The notes below the pieces were generated by a model. It was not told the DNA's origin, made no database searches, and saw nothing but the letters and a program-made list of their open reading frames with translations. From assembly GCF_040784935.1 (NCBI RefSeq), contig NZ_CP160680.1, positions 1,231,501 through 1,295,500 of the forward strand: a DNA stretch of 64,000 bases, read 5' to 3'. Made by a program: the position numbers and the translations under genes. Shown piece after piece: positions 3,239-13,919 of this stretch; the first letter of the stretch is position 1, and each line of letters begins with the position of its first letter. Source of the DNA: Lewinella sp. LCG006. Lineage in GTDB: Bacteria > Bacteroidota > Bacteroidia > Chitinophagales > Saprospiraceae.

Positions 3239-3790
3239 ATGGCAAATACAAGCGCAAAACCGGCCTTTCTACAGTGGTACGAGCCGCATCACCAGAAGTT
3301 GGTACGCTATTGTCGCAGCCGGGCCTTTGGCGTGATGGCAGCAGAAGATTTGGTACAGGAAGCTGTACTTGCTACCCTGGCCAACTGGGAAAACATCAAA
3401 GACCATGACAAACTCCTGGGGTACATGATTGGGGTAGTGAACAATCTGGTACGCAACCATCGGCGCCGGGCACCGTTCCGAGCCCAATGGGATGAACAAC
3501 AATTGCAAGCCCTGGAAAGCCGCTTAGGTGATGCAGCCACTGCCTTGGACATCAGCTACCTATTAAAAGCTATTGACCAACTTCCAGCAAAGCAAGCGGA
3601 AGCTTTGCAACTGTATGAGATCAGTGGTTTTAAAATAAAGGAAATCGCTGCGCTACAGCAAAGTAGTGAAGGAGCCGTAAAGACCAGCCTGAGCCGGGCC
3701 CGCCAGCAACTGCGTCAAACCCTTGCGGAAGATGGTCGTCGCCTCAGCGTCGGTGAACGCCTGAGTATTTACGCTTCCGTATTGTTATAA
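3239..3790 (+). CDS. ECF-type RNA polymerase sigma factor
   Basis: A 183-residue sigma-70 family protein of extracytoplasmic-function size. Region 2 is visible at about residues 10-75 (VRYCRSRAFG, AAEDLVQEAVLATLANW, GYMIGVVNNLVRNHRRR), and region 4 at about 105-165 (AIDQLPAKQAEALQLYEISGFKIKEIAALQQSSEGAVKTSLSRARQQLRQ), a helix-turn-helix for the -35-like element. There is no room for region 1 or 3. The gene is followed after a large palindrome by a very short frame that looks like the cytoplasmic start of an anti-sigma protein, so the pair may be a damaged sigma/anti-sigma operon. Confidence 0.93.
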   Translation: MANTSAKPAFLQWYEPHHQKLVRYCRSRAFGVMAAEDLVQEAVLATLANWENIKDHDKLLGYMIGVVNNLVRNHRRRAPFRAQWDEQQLQALESRLGDAATALDISYLLKAIDQLPAKQAEALQLYEISGFKIKEIAALQQSSEGAVKTSLSRARQQLRQTLAEDGRRLSVGERLSIYASVLL

Positions 3791-6417: not shown

Positions 6418-9400
6418 ATGAAAAATTTATTACTTTTTTGCTTAGCATTACTGTTAAGCGGAGCAGCAATTGCTCAAGAAATTTTTGAAGCCACCCTGAG
6501 TGGGCGACAAGAAGTTTACGCCGTAGCCACATCCGGAACGGGTAACATCACCGCCGAACTTACCGGCAACATCCTCGTCGTCAGTGGTATTTTCTCAAAA
6601 ATGAGTAGCCCCTTCGATGCCACCGTAGCTGGTGGTGCGCACTTACACATTGCTCCCGCGGGTAGGAATGGAGGAATTGCTTTCAACCTGACTCCAATTT
6701 TAGACCCCGACCTTCTGGGGGGCGTTTTTGTCGCTGCGACCAATACCTTTGTGCTTTCCAACGAGCAGGTCAACCAACTCCGAGCTGGAGACTTCTACGT
6801 CAACATTCATACGCTCGCCAATGGCGGAGGCGAACTCCGTGGACAGTTATTCCCACAAAGTGACGCCTATTATTGGGCCAACCTCTTTGGCAACAACGAG
6901 GTTCCTGCGATTATGACGGAGGCTTACGGAGCTTTGGCTTTTACTGTGACGGGCGACCAACTCGTTGCTACGGGTACTTTCAGTAACCTAAGTAGCGCCT
7001 TGGCCACGCAAATTGCTGGCGGAGTGCACCTCCATATTGCTTCTGCGGGTAGCAATGGAGATGTTGCGATTATCCTCAACCCTACCGTCGAGGCCGACGG
7101 CTTGAGTGGCACCTTTCTGGCTACGAACAATACTTTCACGTTAACGAGTGAGCAACAAACAGCCTTAGAGAGCGGCAACATGTACGTAAACATCCACTCT
7201 GCTAATTTTCAAGGTGGGGAATTGCGCGGGCAAGTTCTAGCCCCCGGGCGTACCGTCTTCCGCGCACATTTGGCAGCAGCCAACGAAATTCCATTGACAA
7301 CCTCCCTGGCTTCAGGTCAGCTTTTACTGACCATGACCGACAATGAGTTGATCGTTACGGGTAGATTTGGTGGTTTGGAAGGCGATATCGCTACGGACAT
7401 TGTTGGAGGCATCCACTTGCACAGTGCCGTAGCTGGTACCAACGGAGGTGTAGAAATACCGCTAACCATTGATATTGATGCCGACAATCGTGGGGCAACC
7501 GTAGAAGCAATTAGCAACACCTACCCACTCACTCCGGACATAGAGGAAGCACTTCTCAACCGTGGTTTCTACGTAAACATCCACACCCTGGCCAACCCTG
7601 CTGGTGAGATCAGGGGGCAGGTACTTCCAGAATGCCAATACGTACTCACCGCACCTTTGACGGGGACTCAGGAAATTCCTGACGTTAGTACATCCGCTTA
7701 CGGGATGATTAAGCTGGAAGTTTCTGGCGACCGGGCTATCGCTTCCGGTAGCTTCCGTAACCTGTCCAGTGCGCTGAATGTCGCCATTGCTGGTGGTGCG
7801 CATATTCATGCTGGTTTACCCGGACAAACCGGCGATGTTGTTTTCCTCTTAGCCCCAGTGACCGATCTTGATCTTTTGAACGGTGTTTTCCGCCCGGCAG
7901 CAAACACCTTTACGGTAGACGCCGACCAACGGGCCATGCTTCGTGCACGCGGGATGTACGTCAACGTCCATTCACTGCTCAACGCAGGAGGTGAATTACG
8001 GGGTAACCTGATGGGCGAATCTGCCAATTACTTTTTTGCTCCCCTTTCCGGGGTAAGTGAAGCAGTGCCCGTCAACACTGCAGCAAGGGGTATGATCGCG
8101 ATGGAAGCTAATGCTGGAGCCAGTGTAGCGGTAGGATCTTTTGCCAACCTAAGCAGTCCACTGGCGACCGCTGTTGCGGGAGGAGCCCACTTGCATACGG
8201 GCTTTGCCGGACAAGGTGGTCCAATCTTACAAGTATTGAATGTGGATGAACCAGGTACTTCTGGCGTGTTTTCAGCAGTCAACAATCGCTTTCAGCTGAG
8301 CAGCGGTGCTTTGGATACCTTGCGCGAAAGAATGGTCTACGTCAACATCCACTCTACCGAAAATACGGGAGGTGAAATCCGTGGCCAGGTACTGCCTTCC
8401 GCACAATCTTTTTTCCACACCACCCTGGATGGCATCAACGAAACCATGCCCCTAGCGGTGTCTGGATTAGGAGGTTTAAAGCTGGAACTTAGAGATACGA
8501 CCTTGATTGTTACAGGTAGCTTCGCCAACTTGGCTGGTGAATTTGACGCCAATATTGCTGGTGGTGCCCATTTGCACTTGGCGGGAGTAGGCAACAACGG
8601 TGACATTGCTTTTCCGCTGAATGCTACTTTGGCCTCCGACAATCTCAGTGGCTTCTTTACCGCCGCTGACAATACACTTGAGCTTACTACTGAGCAAGTA
8701 GCCAGCCTGCGGGCCGACAACTACTACGCCAACATTCACACTGCGGCCCAAGCCAGCGGTGAGCTGCGTGGACAAATTCTCCCGGAAGTCAACTTTTTCC
8801 CCCAAGCAGGAGATCTCCTTTTGCCTACCGAGGGCGAATTAATTGACATTGTCGGAGAGATCACTACGGCATTTACCGTGACCTGGCTACCGGGTACGGA
8901 CGTAGACAATGATAGTTTAGGCTACGTTTGGCAATTGGCCACAGACCTGGCGTTTGAAAATGTCATCTTCTCTACGGCTACGGCCGATGAAACTTTCTTC
9001 GCGACCACATTTGGTACCGTTGATTTACTTTTGGGTGCCAATGGCGTAGAAGTAGGCAGTAATGTTACTTTGTATCACCGGGTAGTAGTTACGGATGGTA
9101 GCAACGCTGATGCAAGCCAGCCCCGTTCCGTCAACTTGAATCGTGGCTTGGTCACGGGTATTGATCAGGTGTTAGCACAGTCGGTGCAAATGAATGTATT
9201 CCCTACCCAAACCACCAATGATCCGATCACGGTAGAAATTACCAGTGATGAAAATCGCGATGCAACGCTGCACCTTACCAATGCATTAGGCCAAAGCCTA
9301 CAAAGCATCCCTACAGGATTGATCAATGGTGAGACACGTTTTACCATTGATTTGAACAGGCTTCCTGCTGGACGCTACTTCCTGGTGTTGAGCAGTGAAG

Positions 9401-9438
9401 GGCAAACCTTACCCGTCAAATCGGTATTTAAGTTATAA
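6418..9438 (+). CDS. Secreted protein with six CHRD repeats and a T9SS sorting domain
   Basis: A 1006-residue secreted protein. A signal peptide ends near AIAQ (19-20). Six tandem CHRD (chordin-type) domains of about 130 residues follow, ending at about 144, 277, 404, 534, 660 and 790. Each shows the same elements: a start like ATLSGRQEV or APLTGTQEIP, GGAHLHIAxAGxNG, a YVNIHTxxNxGGELRGQ strand, and a turn leading to the next unit. Then come an Ig/fibronectin-like domain (about 800-905) and a C-terminal type A sorting domain (NVFPTQTTNDPITVEI ... LPAGRYFLVLSS ... VKSVFKL) used for export by the type IX system. CHRD domains occur in extracellular proteins and their ligand in bacteria is unknown. 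A perfect palindrome terminates the gene. Confidence 0.9.
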   Translation: MKNLLLFCLALLLSGAAIAQEIFEATLSGRQEVYAVATSGTGNITAELTGNILVVSGIFSKMSSPFDATVAGGAHLHIAPAGRNGGIAFNLTPILDPDLLGGVFVAATNTFVLSNEQVNQLRAGDFYVNIHTLANGGGELRGQLFPQSDAYYWANLFGNNEVPAIMTEAYGALAFTVTGDQLVATGTFSNLSSALATQIAGGVHLHIASAGSNGDVAIILNPTVEADGLSGTFLATNNTFTLTSEQQTALESGNMYVNIHSANFQGGELRGQVLAPGRTVFRAHLAAANEIPLTTSLASGQLLLTMTDNELIVTGRFGGLEGDIATDIVGGIHLHSAVAGTNGGVEIPLTIDIDADNRGATVEAISNTYPLTPDIEEALLNRGFYVNIHTLANPAGEIRGQVLPECQYVLTAPLTGTQEIPDVSTSAYGMIKLEVSGDRAIASGSFRNLSSALNVAIAGGAHIHAGLPGQTGDVVFLLAPVTDLDLLNGVFRPAANTFTVDADQRAMLRARGMYVNVHSLLNAGGELRGNLMGESANYFFAPLSGVSEAVPVNTAARGMIAMEANAGASVAVGSFANLSSPLATAVAGGAHLHTGFAGQGGPILQVLNVDEPGTSGVFSAVNNRFQLSSGALDTLRERMVYVNIHSTENTGGEIRGQVLPSAQSFFHTTLDGINETMPLAVSGLGGLKLELRDTTLIVTGSFANLAGEFDANIAGGAHLHLAGVGNNGDIAFPLNATLASDNLSGFFTAADNTLELTTEQVASLRADNYYANIHTAAQASGELRGQILPEVNFFPQAGDLLLPTEGELIDIVGEITTAFTVTWLPGTDVDNDSLGYVWQLATDLAFENVIFSTATADETFFATTFGTVDLLLGANGVEVGSNVTLYHRVVVTDGSNADASQPRSVNLNRGLVTGIDQVLAQSVQMNVFPTQTTNDPITVEITSDENRDATLHLTNALGQSLQSIPTGLINGETRFTIDLNRLPAGRYFLVLSSEGQTLPVKSVFKL

Positions 9439-10095: not shown

Positions 10096-10140
10096 AAGAC
10101 AAATAGCATAGATGAAAGATGAAACGCTAAGATAGTACGG

Positions 10141-10470
10141 ATGGGAGATTTAGCAGGATTTTTGTCCAAAGGTCGAGTCATGAAAGGACGGAGTAGGTCG
10201 ATGGGGAGGATCAGCGGAATGTCTTCCGCTAGTAGCATCTGGCGTCCTTTCAGGACTTTTAGCGAAGGGCCGAGTCCTGAAAGGACGACATATGCCGAGG
10301 TAGGATGCCAATCCTACCTCATGTATAGATTAGCCCGAGTCTTGAAAAGACGACAGATGCCCGGGTGGGATGTGGATACTCCCCTATGGGAAGAGGATTG
10401 TTGGGGGAGGACAGACGGAATGTCTTCCGCCGATAACGGATGCCCGGGTGGGATGTGAATCCTACCCCAT
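10141..10470. repeat. Left REP-like palindrome array
   Basis: This holds cores at 10177-10189 (variant GTCATGAAAGGAC), 10244-10256 (reverse, GTCCTTTCAGGAC), 10274-10286 (GTCCTGAAAGGAC) and 10339-10351 (GTCTTGAAAAGAC, where the C-G pair has become T-A on both sides). Accessory hairpins lie at 10214-10229 (GCGGAA/TTCCGC), 10297-10320 (GAGGTAGGAT/ATCCTACCTC, perfect), 10416-10429 and 10446-10467. The paired change at 10339 indicates that the stem, not the letters, is conserved. No coding function is seen. Confidence 0.85.
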
Positions 10471-10482
10471 AATGGACTTCAA

Positions 10483-10935
10483 TTAGTCCCAAACATAACG
10501 CTCATCAAAGGAAACTTCATGTTGTTTGAGTAAAGAATAATATTCTGTCTTGAAGTCTTTCTTAGTGTGATGGGCCTTTTGGTTTTGGATATACCTAATG
10601 ACAATACCCACTTGTTTTGGGTTGACGGAGAAGGCTCCATATCCGTTTTGCCAGTAGAATTCATCGAGTGAAGGGTGCTTGCTTTTTATCCACTTAGAAG
10701 AGTTTGCTTTTAGCTTTTGTAGCAGTTCTGCTAATGGAATATTCTTGGAGAGCATCGTTAGAATATGAACGTGGTCTGTATAGCCACCGACAGCCAAAAC
10801 AGGGCAATCTAATGACTTACAGATTCCGCCAAGATAAGCGTGCAGCTCATTTTCAAAATACGGCTGTATTAGAGGCTGCCTGTACTTAGTGCTGAATACA
10901 ATATGAATATAGTTTTTAACGAGAGATTGACCCAT
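10483..10935 (-). CDS. IS200/IS605-family Y1 (RAYT-like) transposase
   Basis: A 150-residue single-domain HUH endonuclease of the Y1 transposase family, which cuts and joins single-stranded DNA at hairpins. The metal-binding HUH pair is His55/His57 (GYTDHVHILTML) and the nucleophile is Tyr115 (VIRYIQNQKAHH). The N-terminus (SLVKNYIHIVFSTKYRQ) and the segment LLQKLKANSSKWIK are typical. The gene is intact, with a 47-nt gap from its start to an AT-rich segment with no accessory TnpB or IscB gene. Its setting between many copies of one hairpin favours a REP-associated (domesticated or REP-mobilising) enzyme over a free IS200 copy, though an IS200 insertion cannot be excluded. Confidence 0.92.
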   Translation of the reverse strand: MGQSLVKNYIHIVFSTKYRQPLIQPYFENELHAYLGGICKSLDCPVLAVGGYTDHVHILTMLSKNIPLAELLQKLKANSSKWIKSKHPSLDEFYWQNGYGAFSVNPKQVGIVIRYIQNQKAHHTKKDFKTEYYSLLKQHEVSFDERYVWD

Positions 10936-11229
10936 AAAACAAGGTTTTTAGAATAATTTTGATAACTACGAATAGATTAAATAGCAACTTAGGACAGTAC
11001 GAGGGCTGTCGTTTGCAGGTATAGTCATTGAAGGCTATCGCTAAGAATTAGCGTTGTTGATGGAAGTGGAACTCCTACTTTTATGGTAAGTTGCCGAGAA
11101 TGACACCTAAGTAGGGATATTGAGTTTGCTAAGATATGTATTTTTAACAAATTAATTATACACACTTTTGAAAAACACGCTCCTGTTTTTCTATTTATGC
11201 GAGGAGATGGACGGGGAGGTCGACGTCTA

Positions 11230-11610
11230 TCGTTCCTTCGGGGGCTAATATATGTCGTCCTTTCAGGACCTTTAACCAAGGGCCGAGTCCTGAAGGGACG
11301 ACAGATACCGGGGTGGGATGCTAGTCCTACCCCATGATATACACTAGCCCACAAGTCCTGAAAGGACGGCAGATGCTCGGGTGGGAGGTGGATACTACCC
11401 TTTGGGAAGAGGATTGTTTGGGAGGGAGGACCGACGGAATATCTTCCGCCGATAACGGATGCCGTCCTTTCAGGACTTTTAGCGAAGGGCCAAGTCCTGA
11501 AAGGACGACAGATACTGGGGTAGGATGCTAGTCCTACCCCATGATATACATTAGCTCGAGTCCTATAAGGACCACAGATACTCGGGTCGGATGTAAATTC
11601 TACACTATGA
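11230..11610. repeat. Right REP-like palindrome array
   Basis: Cores lie at 11257-11269 (reverse), 11287-11299 (GTCCTGAAGGGAC, one G-T wobble), 11355-11367, 11464-11476 (reverse), 11494-11506 and 11560-11572 (loop ATA in place of GAA, stem unchanged). Accessory hairpins: 11310-11333 (GGGGTGGGA/TCCTACCCC), 11435-11448 (CGGAA/TTCCG) and about 11516-11540. The array runs to within 30 nt of the TonB receptor's stop codon. A 200-codon minus-strand frame through it is a translation of the repeats and not a gene. The stretch 10936-11229 between transposase and array is AT-rich with no gene seen. Confidence 0.85.
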
Positions 11611-11639
11611 AGAATGATATTTCTCAACGATGCATCACC

Positions 11640-13919
11640 CTAAAAATACAACACCACTTTCCCGCGCAAGCTAAATGGAGCGCCCGGCGTAAAGTGAATC
11701 TCTTCCACTGCTTCTGTTTCACTGAAAAGGCGGGTTTCTGTAGCGAACTGCGCTTCGTTCCACTCATCGTTGAGTAAATTTTCTGCGCTCAGGCCAACGA
11801 AGTAATTGCGGCCCTGGTAACCCAGGTTGGCATCGAGCAAGAAATACCCCGAAGCCGTGAGGTTATTTGCTTCATCGGCTGGGCGGTCACCAAGCAGGCG
11901 GTAACGCAGAGAAGCTTGCCAACCTTCGGCAGGGCTATAGCTAAGTCCGCCGGTGCTGGTCCAGATGGGCGCCAAAGGAATACGATCAGCTGCTTCGGTT
12001 GTTTTGCTGCGGGCATGGGTGTAGGTAACATTGGCATCAGCAAAAAAAGCTTGGCCTATCTGCCAACGTGCCATGCCTTCCAAACCACGGCGGATGGTTG
12101 CTCCACTCGGTTCCACCACTCCTTCATCCCCCACGTAAACAAACTCTTGTTCCAGATCAAGCTGCCAGGCATTGATTTGCCAGACCAAGCTGCGGCCTGT
12201 TCTAAACAATGCTCCCAGGTCATAACTCACACCAGCAGGCAGGCTGCTCTTAACTTCCTGTTCCAAAATCAAACGGGTGTCATTGGAATGAAAACCTCGG
12301 GCGGCACGAGCATAAAGCTGCCAGCCATTGCTTACCTGGTAGAATAAACTCAATTTAGGACTGAGGATACCGTCGGTCGTTGATAGTTGTTCGTAAGCAG
12401 GCTTCAACTGGTCGAGATACTGAAAGCGGAAACGATCATAACGCAAGCCGGCCTGTAGACGAAGTGCTGGTAACAATTGTAAGTTGGCTTCCCCATAAAC
12501 GGCGGCGTTCAACTCGGTCACATCACCCAATTGCACTTTTTCCAGGGTCGTCGTACGATTACGTGTGTAAGACAACTCATTATCATTGCTACGGTCAAAA
12601 CGCAGCTGCCAGCCCAATTGCGCATTCAAGGGCAAGCCCAAAAACTCGGTTTGTTTGAGCAGTCGGCTACGGTAACCAAACAAATGGCGATCTTCTTTTT
12701 GGCGAATTTGATCACCGTTGACGGGATCTCTTTCAAAGAAGGTAAAATTGGAATAAAGCTCAAAATCGTATTTGCTGTAGAAAAACTGGGTTTCCAATTG
12801 CGTACTCGGATTGAGGATATACTGGTGCTGGATATTGGCATTGATGCGGCTGGTTTGGCCTCCTTCTGTATCGTCAATGGCTCCAAACCTGCTGATCAAT
12901 CCCTGATCAACAGCCCGCTGAGGGATTTGACCACTGGCATCCCAGCGGCTGCTAAAGGCCGAGAAAGTAGCCGTAAGTTTTTGTCGGCCATCGAATGGAT
13001 TATAGTACTTAGCAAGGGTATTGATTCGATAAAAATTCTGAGGTGACTCAAAGTATCCATCCGTAAAAATACCTTCCGAAGCGATATAGGCGCTTGCACT
13101 GTTCTCCCCTCCCAATGGCAAAAGATTGAGTCCGCTCACTAAGCGATAAGTATCAAAACTCCCCGCTTCAGCTTTTGCGAAATTTCTAGCCAGTCGGTTG
13201 GTCGTAGTCATCTCTACAGCACCAGCCGTAGCAAAATTCCCGTCACGGGCAGCATAAGGCCCTTTGCGTAAATCAATGGATTGAATAATCTCAGGGATGA
13301 CGAAATGCAAGTCGGCATAACCTTGTCCGTGGGCATGACTGACCATGTTCACCGGCATCCCGTCTACTTGGATAGCTAAATCAGTGCCGTGGTCGATGTC
13401 AAAACCACGCAGAAAAATCTGCTCAGCTTTACCGCCACCAGCGTGTTGAGCAATAAAGAGTCCGGGCATCATGCGTAAAAGTTCCTGCCCATTGTTGACT
13501 GGCCGCGTCTTGAGGTCGACTTGAGAAATGGTGGCAAAAGGATCAATGGCTTTTGCGCTGATCACCACATCTGGCAAGTTGACATTTTCGGGTTGTAAGT
13601 TGATGCGAAGTGGCTGCGTGCTGTCGTCGGAAACCGTGATATTTTCCAACGTTACGGAGGCATAAGCCAGGTAGCTTACCCTTACCGAATACTGGCCCGC
13701 TGGTAAGCCCATGAAACTAAACACCCCCAACTCATTGGTGTAGGCAGTTTTGTCTTGATCTAGTAATTCTACGGTTGCACCTCCAAGCTCCAACTGGGTT
13801 GTAGCGTCACGAACAATGCCACTGATGGACCCCTTGTGGAGGTTGTTCCCTAAAAGGGAAAAGCTGACAAATGCAAAAAATACTAAGAAAGAGTACGGAA
13901 GGTAGATTGTTTTTTTCAT
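11640..13919 (-). CDS. TonB-dependent outer-membrane receptor with carboxypeptidase-like N-terminal domain
   Basis: A 759-residue receptor. The ATG at 13919 gives a signal peptide (MKKTIYLPYSFLVFFAFVSF); a longer frame start is rejected because it lacks one. The N-terminal beta-sandwich (about 33-110: GIVRDATTQLELGGATVEL ... NELGVFSFMGLPAG) is the regulatory-like domain common in Bacteroidota receptors. A plug follows (about 115-235: LRMMPGLFIAQHAGGG, IFLRGFDIDHGTDLAIQVDG), then a beta-barrel ending SLRGKVVLYF, with an aromatic last residue. A histidine-rich plug segment (MVSHAHGQGYADLHF) hints at metal or metal-chelate binding, but no substrate can be named. There is no SusD partner next to it. 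Confidence 0.93.
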   Translation of the reverse strand: MKKTIYLPYSFLVFFAFVSFSLLGNNLHKGSISGIVRDATTQLELGGATVELLDQDKTAYTNELGVFSFMGLPAGQYSVRVSYLAYASVTLENITVSDDSTQPLRINLQPENVNLPDVVISAKAIDPFATISQVDLKTRPVNNGQELLRMMPGLFIAQHAGGGKAEQIFLRGFDIDHGTDLAIQVDGMPVNMVSHAHGQGYADLHFVIPEIIQSIDLRKGPYAARDGNFATAGAVEMTTTNRLARNFAKAEAGSFDTYRLVSGLNLLPLGGENSASAYIASEGIFTDGYFESPQNFYRINTLAKYYNPFDGRQKLTATFSAFSSRWDASGQIPQRAVDQGLISRFGAIDDTEGGQTSRINANIQHQYILNPSTQLETQFFYSKYDFELYSNFTFFERDPVNGDQIRQKEDRHLFGYRSRLLKQTEFLGLPLNAQLGWQLRFDRSNDNELSYTRNRTTTLEKVQLGDVTELNAAVYGEANLQLLPALRLQAGLRYDRFRFQYLDQLKPAYEQLSTTDGILSPKLSLFYQVSNGWQLYARAARGFHSNDTRLILEQEVKSSLPAGVSYDLGALFRTGRSLVWQINAWQLDLEQEFVYVGDEGVVEPSGATIRRGLEGMARWQIGQAFFADANVTYTHARSKTTEAADRIPLAPIWTSTGGLSYSPAEGWQASLRYRLLGDRPADEANNLTASGYFLLDANLGYQGRNYFVGLSAENLLNDEWNEAQFATETRLFSETEAVEEIHFTPGAPFSLRGKVVLYF

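Follow-up and report, generated by a model that had tools for sequence, protein, structure and literature searches.

What kind of system do the palindromes around a Y1 transposase gene in Lewinella sp. LCG006 form with that gene? The first-pass annotation of the 64-kb stretch of DNA analysed here (the window) had proposed a Bacteroidota version of a REP/RAYT system, with three companion hairpins, as worth describing. We regard it as quite likely that the island represents a REP/RAYT-like system in which a TnpA-Y1 subclass 1.2 protein takes the place of a RAYT. What is found in the window is one local instance of a more widespread system.

Exact copies of GTCCTNNNAGGAC occur seven times in the 64-kb window, every one of them at 10244-11572, against an expectation of 0.10. 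None of 100 shuffles of the window attained this number. Together with three variants they make up ten GTCCT-NNN-AGGAC hairpins flanking one intact HUH/Y1 gene, which agrees with the earlier count. The frame of this gene is open throughout. A compensatory stem change at 10339-10351 and a copy of hairpin A with the loop ATA at 11560-11572 had been described, and both are present. Three pairs of hairpin A lie back to back (10244/10274, 11257/11287 and 11464/11494) with 17 nt between the members of each, and the interleaved order A(-) A(+) - B - A(+) - B' - C is found on both sides of tnpA, again as claimed. The features are listed below, with this genome designated G000 and three genomes of the same genus G001, G002 and G003.

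10140..11640 (ends approximate), no strand: whole island, missing between the same two genes in G002 and G001 (tblastn, gap sequences)
10177-10189, plus strand: variant hairpin A GTCATGAAAGGAC, the outermost, degenerate A with a single mismatched pair (direct sequence reading)
10213..10256, minus strand: inverted unit, A 10244-10256 on minus, then hairpin C 10213-10230 (sequence reading, fold)
10273..10320, plus strand: bipartite unit, A 10274-10286, B 10297-10320 (GAGGTAGGATGCCAATCCTACCTC); RF01687 28.8 bits, 10273-10318 minus
10338..10385, plus strand: bipartite unit, A 10339-10351 (double change), degenerate B' 10362-10385 (unit alignment, covariation)
10339-10351, plus strand: variant hairpin A GTCTTGAAAAGAC, GTCTT-GAA-AAGAC, double change of C-G to T-A
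10416..10469, plus strand: lone hairpin C 10416-10429 and lone B 10446-10469, adjoining the tnpA stop codon
10483..10935, minus strand: tnpA, Y1/HUH transposase of 150 aa (Pfam, alignment, AlphaFold2 model)
11235..11269, minus strand: inverted unit, A 11257-11269 on minus, second hairpin shortened; RF01687 28.4 bits, 11235-11270 plus
11286..11333, plus strand: bipartite unit, A 11287-11299, B 11310-11333; RF01687 25.9 bits, 11286-11331 minus
11287-11299, plus strand: variant hairpin A GTCCTGAAGGGAC, one G-T pair
11354..11401, plus strand: bipartite unit, A 11355-11367, degenerate B' 11378-11401 (pattern count, unit alignment)
11432..11476, minus strand: inverted unit, A 11464-11476 on minus, hairpin C 11435-11448; RF01687 23.3 bits, 11432-11477 plus
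11493..11541, plus strand: bipartite unit, A 11494-11506, B 11516-11541; RF01687 29.4 bits, E 2.8e-4
11559..11606, plus strand: bipartite unit, A 11560-11572 (ATA loop), degenerate B (pattern count, unit alignment)

The next gene but one from the island, a 1006-aa open frame at 6418-9438, carries internal repeats with recurring GG-H-H and NIH motifs.

The true repeat unit is bipartite. Hairpin A (GTCCT-GAA-AGGAC, a 5-bp stem with a 3-nt loop) is followed by a short linker and by hairpin B, and A and B are one unit. The supposed companion hairpins are instead the second half of this unit, which matches Rfam RF01687. Minus-strand copies such as 10244-10256 carry hairpin C in place of B. An alignment of 14 units, six from the island and eight from outside, with linkers of 10-11 nt, contains five pairs that changed on both sides, a level of covariation attained by 0 of 500 shuffles. 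In this alignment 91% of the cells are paired, and fewer once the partners are slid. The proposal that the hairpins are under selection is thus upheld. Single-stranded DNA folds of three window stretches were much stabler than those of shuffles (z -5.5 to -9.4), with z -8.78 for 10204-10325 and -14 kcal/mol (z -5.45) for the unit at 11493..11541.

The protein was then assigned to a family. Pfam Y1_Tnp matches the 150-aa sequence with E 5.2e-27, and H55, H57, W95, Q96, Y115, Q119, H122 and H123 are invariant in a 29-row alignment (A1). An AlphaFold2 model (pLDDT 88.7) has its best PDB match in ISDra2 TnpA (2xma, E 8.6e-9), with 2vhg at E 1.5e-8 and the RAYT structure 4er8 at rank 30 (E 1.2e-4). 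The NCBIfam IS200 model scores 70.6 bits against a cut-off of 55. Identity as a RAYT was rejected, as NCBIfam REP_Tyr_transpos gives 19.8 bits against a cut-off of 80 and the tyrosine motif is YIQNQ, not Y---NP. The class 2 motif Y...NP was found in 0 of 177 proteins examined. Apart from the fold, the traits of subclass 1.1 (IS200/IS605) are lacking: the motif reads YIQNQ..HH rather than Y[IV]ENQ and the genome holds no near-identical copies; it carries four such tnpA genes, and the other three are 36% identical to the one in the window. All features of subclass 1.2 (Y---Q--HH, WQ, DH[IV]H, about 148 aa) are found in the window TnpA, which by motifs and length fits this subclass. To our knowledge, binding, cutting or joining of single-stranded DNA has been shown for no subclass 1.2 protein.

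Of the REP/RAYT proposal, therefore, the REP- or BIME-like arrangement stood and the RAYT did not. As in REP/RAYT systems (REPtrons; TnpA-Y1 class 2), a Y1 gene is flanked by its own hairpin family with inverted pairs, copies are scattered and the gene copy number is low. In contrast to them, the window protein has the class 1 motif (Y---Q--HH instead of Y---NP), the unit has two hairpins and a foot other than GTAG, the units are only modestly dispersed in this genome, and copies in two other genomes are purely local. The low copy number and the occurrence in Bacteroidetes are further traits that it has in common with subclass 1.2 in the cited passages of Quentin et al. 2018 (PMC6006769). These passages already place Bacteroidetes REP or REP-like systems in subclasses 2.4 and 2.6, so a REP system is not in itself new for Bacteroidota; subclass 1.2 is described there with no REP and "generally" without the typical terminal IS200 secondary structure. 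CGTC-tagged REPs are likewise short palindromes with Bacteroidetes among their phyla, and Di Nocera et al. 2013 (PMC3733652, passages cited) give them stems of 8-9 bp, loops of 4-5 nt and no transposase. Membership of that family was rejected on these dimensions, hairpin A having a 5-bp stem and a 3-nt loop.

Next, the hairpins were followed outside the island. An excess of the motif throughout the genome had been expected. The bare GTCCTNNNAGGAC, with 17 places as compared with 15 for the backwards control, is no evidence alone. BLAST of a 197-nt island stretch against its own genome gave 17 segments, with eight places outside the island. All eight carry hairpin A, linker and hairpin B in the same orientation, B being intact or partly decayed. 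Six lie outside all open frames of 110 aa or more; of the other two, one reaches into the end of such a frame and one lies partly over a frame antisense to another. Since these copies share loop and flank with those of the island, a point that the first-pass annotation had proposed to check, the motif is not merely a local tandem duplication. An excess emerges only once loop and flank are counted in: the flank-extended AGTCCTGAAAGGACG has 11 copies in this genome, with 0 for the control. Near 326,650 and 5,660,840 of its contig C1, scattered units are followed by a repeated stretch starting GTGCGCAAGGCGTAGCCTGG, apparently a second repeat family.

Hairpin families follow the tnpA lineage in the two cases tested. 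Of 40 genomes searched, this one among them, two have the 15-nt A hairpin AGTCCTGAAAGGACG: G000 with 11 copies and G006 with 17, spread over 13 contigs. Some tnpA is present in 21 of the 40, and that of G006 is the closest to the window's (67%). The second case comes from the other tnpA genes of this genome. Its four genes are flanked by three hairpin families, GTCCT-GAA at the window gene, GACCTC-NNNN-GAGGTC at L017 and L018, and GTCGGGT at L019. GYCGGGTWTNAWACCCGRC was found in only 2 of 20 genomes, G000 (11 copies) and G002 (18 copies; control 0), which are the carriers of the similar tnpA pair L019/L035 (82% DNA identity over 574 nt). The other two genomes of the genus have 0 copies. Such co-diverged enzyme-hairpin pairs would form a natural set, and because paralogues in the same genome have different hairpins, the rules of recognition are testable by swaps.

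A very improbable account, in our estimate, is that the hairpins are passive palindromes, terminators or replication-slippage arrays, that are preferred sites of tnpA insertion and are unused by the enzyme. Local arrays of near-constant period agree with it. TTGCTCCGNTGGAGCAA occurs in one of eight genomes (G025, L031), with all 14 copies in an array at its tnpA, mostly at a 54-nt period, and AAGGCTGAAAGCCTT has six copies in Bacteroides xylanisolvens (L102), all six at its tnpA, and one each in 2 of 9 other genomes. Dispersal is thus not universal, and the local-only copies in these two systems count against the reading that we prefer. Same-genus tnpA genes also lie at two different palindrome-bearing intergenic sites. 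L019 and L035 are one gene apart (L228, G000:C1:4857000-4864500; L229, G002:C46:30000-38500), and the gene-less counterpart site holds a solo palindrome in G002 and, by eye, a degenerate palindrome in G000. This placement suggests short-range movement between hairpin sites. Against passive palindromes speak the tracking of tnpA lineage by hairpin sequence in both tested cases and a unit shape that is conserved across phyla.

Signs of mobility were observed at several loci. In G002 and G001 a LOG-family gene and a TonB-dependent receptor adjoin and the 1.5-kb island is absent (tblastn, gap sequences), which may reflect insertion here or loss there, as both fit. The third genome of the genus, G003, is uninformative because its LOG gene lies away from the receptor. 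G006 carries MITE-like elements of about 180 nt, which are capped by the exact A hairpin, as A(+) at one end and A(-) at the other, and have further hairpins inside. Six copies, the query included, are at least 84% identical to the query. Flanks were compared for five of the six and for one weaker copy; most have 20-40 nt of outer sequence in common and then diverge. Half-elements flank the G006 tnpA on both sides (C37:2732-2819 and 3287-3374), so that the MITE-like element resembles the gene cassette minus the gene. The paralogous cassettes L017 and L018 lie at two distant sites, each with two hairpins, tnpA and two hairpins; over about 710 nt they share 83% identity, and on both sides the outermost hairpin marks the limit of the similarity. 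In viral contigs, 38 pattern matches were obtained and no relative by tblastn.

These observations bear on the explanation of the locus as an ordinary insertion sequence of the IS200/IS605 type, whose left and right ends were duplicated locally and whose decayed ends are the scattered units. We consider this unlikely. IS608 and ISDra2 (subclass 1.1) resemble the island in TnpA fold, catalytic residues and hairpins near the gene; their transposases are the closest folds, the NCBIfam IS200 model is above its cut-off, G002 and G001 are without the island, and the L017/L018 cassettes match from outer hairpin to outer hairpin. However, the window tnpA is without a second genomic copy, the nearest genes being the three at 36% identity. 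Moreover, the hairpins are multiple, inverted and bipartite instead of one per end, and the A-B order with its near-constant spacing is kept in the scattered copies.

For the REP/RAYT-like system that we prefer, a mechanism can be proposed by analogy with the HUH family. TnpA would act as an HUH/tyrosine nuclease, and its substrate would be the bipartite single-stranded unit, in which GAA-triloop hairpin A is joined to a second hairpin (B or C) by a linker of 10-11 nt in this genome, 12 nt being the commonest length in relatives. On an exposed strand, such as the lagging-strand template, the unit would fold and be bound by TnpA, which would cut beside a hairpin through a 5'-phosphotyrosine and then join or move units by strand transfer. 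Inverted pairs, clusters round the gene, MITE-like derivatives lacking tnpA and scattered copies would be the outcome.

The association was evaluated in a family-wide set of tnpA loci. The discovery set comprised 111 loci, 31 from this genome and its relatives and the best 80 of the matches listed. L047, a 165-nt partial match, had been excluded from 32 loci, and some further matches in relatives were without a locus. Four of the 111 proteins, with an internal stop or too short, are absent from the tree, which holds 107. The motif Y...Q..HH is present in 104 of these 107 and in 29/30 and 40/40 held-out proteins; the three without it (L039, L088, L098) were retained in every count. A repeated hairpin was found on both sides of the gene within 600 nt in 79 of the 111 loci (31 plus the best 80 listed), and in 65 of the 91 having at least 500 nt on both sides. 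Among the controls, 1 of the 130 distal regions taken from these loci gave such a result, as did 0 of 193 overlapping window regions. The remaining 32 of 111 loci failed the two-sided test, which counts against the reading of TnpA and unit as a pair. Held-out loci gave 18/30 and 23/40, together 41/70. These two-sided counts correct the published statement of a subclass 1.2 without hairpins (PMC6006769, passages cited). The initial stem-6 test had given 53/111, and a 5-bp triloop test was added after looking; the stem-6 test missed the window locus, as its A stem is 5 bp.

Triloop hairpins reach 4.48 per kb within 200 nt of tnpA against 0.4-0.7 per kb beyond 600 nt. Compared with intergenic DNA only, the excess is about threefold (3.45 versus 1.10 per kb), and 76 of 111 loci have at least one such hairpin, with about 48% expected from intergenic DNA. 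The intergenic-only comparison weakens the simple argument from hairpin density. Bipartite units numbered 119 in 146 kb near tnpA versus 6 in 294 kb of distal DNA. The detector for them was built after looking at loci and was run unchanged on the 40 later held-out loci. Sixty of the 111 loci contain the unit, with one of seven purine-rich triloops (GAA, AAA, AAC etc.) and then a second hairpin, and in 37 of the 60 the linker is exactly 12 nt. Of the 119 units, 82 have hairpin A as the outer of the two, whichever side of the gene they lie on, units of the same locus not being independent. The foot of the second hairpin in the 60 loci, reminiscent of GTAG in REPs, leans towards N(C/T)AG, with A at -2 in 46 and G at -1 in 37.

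The tree divides the loci into a window clade and another clade, with 11 of the 107 discovery proteins in neither. Within the window clade, the bipartite unit is found at 55/82 discovery and 9/10 held-out loci (7/8 among the later 40). The other clade has repeated hairpins (9/14, 16/28 and 17/32), seldom in the bipartite form, which was found at 0/14 discovery and at 3/28 and 8/32 held-out loci. The first 30 held-out loci, from the order of the B. xylanisolvens genome, gave the unit in 5/30, two of them doubtful by arms and linkers, and 28 of the 30 fall in the other clade. The later 40 were chosen by us from listed places without a locus, and their clade is that of the nearest tree neighbour. 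Because the 30 were known before the split and the 40 were fetched afterwards, the clade split is post hoc for the former and prospective for the latter. Several units with odd linkers in both clades (for example L252 and L255 in the window clade, L238 and L258 in the other) are possibly due to chance. Verrucomicrobia, Planctomycetota and others appear in the titles of further records that supplied loci, and many of these records are MAGs. If the interpretation is true, a group classed as lacking REP would gain a further REP/RAYT-like system, with bipartite repeats and a range that takes in Bacteroidota, Verrucomicrobiota, Planctomycetota and other phyla. In the order of B. xylanisolvens, 117 of 198 genomes gave one or more matches to the tnpA alignment (E <=0.001); the family is thus common there.

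A further line of evidence came from Rfam. Thirteen loci were compared with all Rfam models (E <=0.1), and RF01687 (Acido-Lenti-1 RNA) was obtained in six of them, four tnpA loci and two gene-less copies; other matches were one tRNA and one weak miRNA. The RF01687 consensus, two hairpins with a 12-nt linker and a UUC loop (GAA when reverse-complemented), is the reverse complement of the A-B unit. The model was published and built independently of the present analysis. Among the 80 named loci it gave 36 matches above the gathering threshold at 17 loci, all of them 8 to 835 nt from the gene, and only 30% of the bases in these 80 loci lie within 900 nt of the gene. As copies at the same locus are not independent, the figure to weigh is 17/17 loci. 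The window units score 23.3-29.4 bits, below the gathering score of 37, and a copy at 6,776,115 of the same genome scores 49.3 bits.

At E 0.001, RF01687 is present in at least 13 of the 40 relatives (own genome included), at least eight of which exceed the cut-off, and the 14 control genomes gave 0; as at most 115 candidates were scored per genome, these genome counts may be low and are lower bounds. All five genomes whose tnpA reaches 50% identity to that of the window over 100 aa or more have RF01687, versus at least 8 of 35 others (p 0.002). Presence of any tnpA did not predict it significantly (at least 9/21 versus at least 4/19 genomes without, p 0.13).

Because it is the same unit as A-B, the RF01687 "RNA" is most likely a DNA element. 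We judge that the orphan Acido-Lenti-1 "RNA" is probably, in the first place, the two-hairpin single-stranded DNA substrate of a separate Y1 transposase lineage, subclass 1.2. If so, RF01687 gains a function after standing as an orphan family since 2010. RF01687 is filed as an sRNA in Rfam, with Acidobacteria and Lentisphaerae as its taxa, and Table 1 of Weinberg 2010 scores it "y", probably RNA (PMC2864571, passages cited). Both entries favour a functional RNA, for example one that regulates tnpA, with the association with DNA being secondary. We hold this to be decidedly unlikely, as units lie on both strands round the gene (the 82 of 119 with A outermost), in MITE-like copies and scattered at different sites. 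In contrast to the filing as an sRNA, the units here accompany a transposase gene and DNA that looks mobile. A 2026 paper states, in the passages cited, that little is known of RF01687 and reads a regulatory role into it (PMC13298647). If the DNA interpretation is true, such readings, and annotations that list RF01687 as sRNA genes, would merit a second look. In the literature covered, mainly passages of open-access journal papers, we found no work that ties RF01687 or subclass 1.2 to hairpin repeats.

Against the preferred reading, RF01687 also occurs in genomes where the window protein detected no tnpA, G008 (at least 5 copies), G016 (at least 21), G018 (at least 53) and G023 (at least 10). 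The A1 profile detected no tnpA in 24 stretches, 21 of them from G018 (L204, L208-L227), a search that class 2 proteins could escape. Possibly these copies are left over from a gene since lost, or another enzyme moves them. Far from the taxa sampled here, Vibrio anguillarum is also listed with RF01687 copies in the passages cited from PMC10059132.
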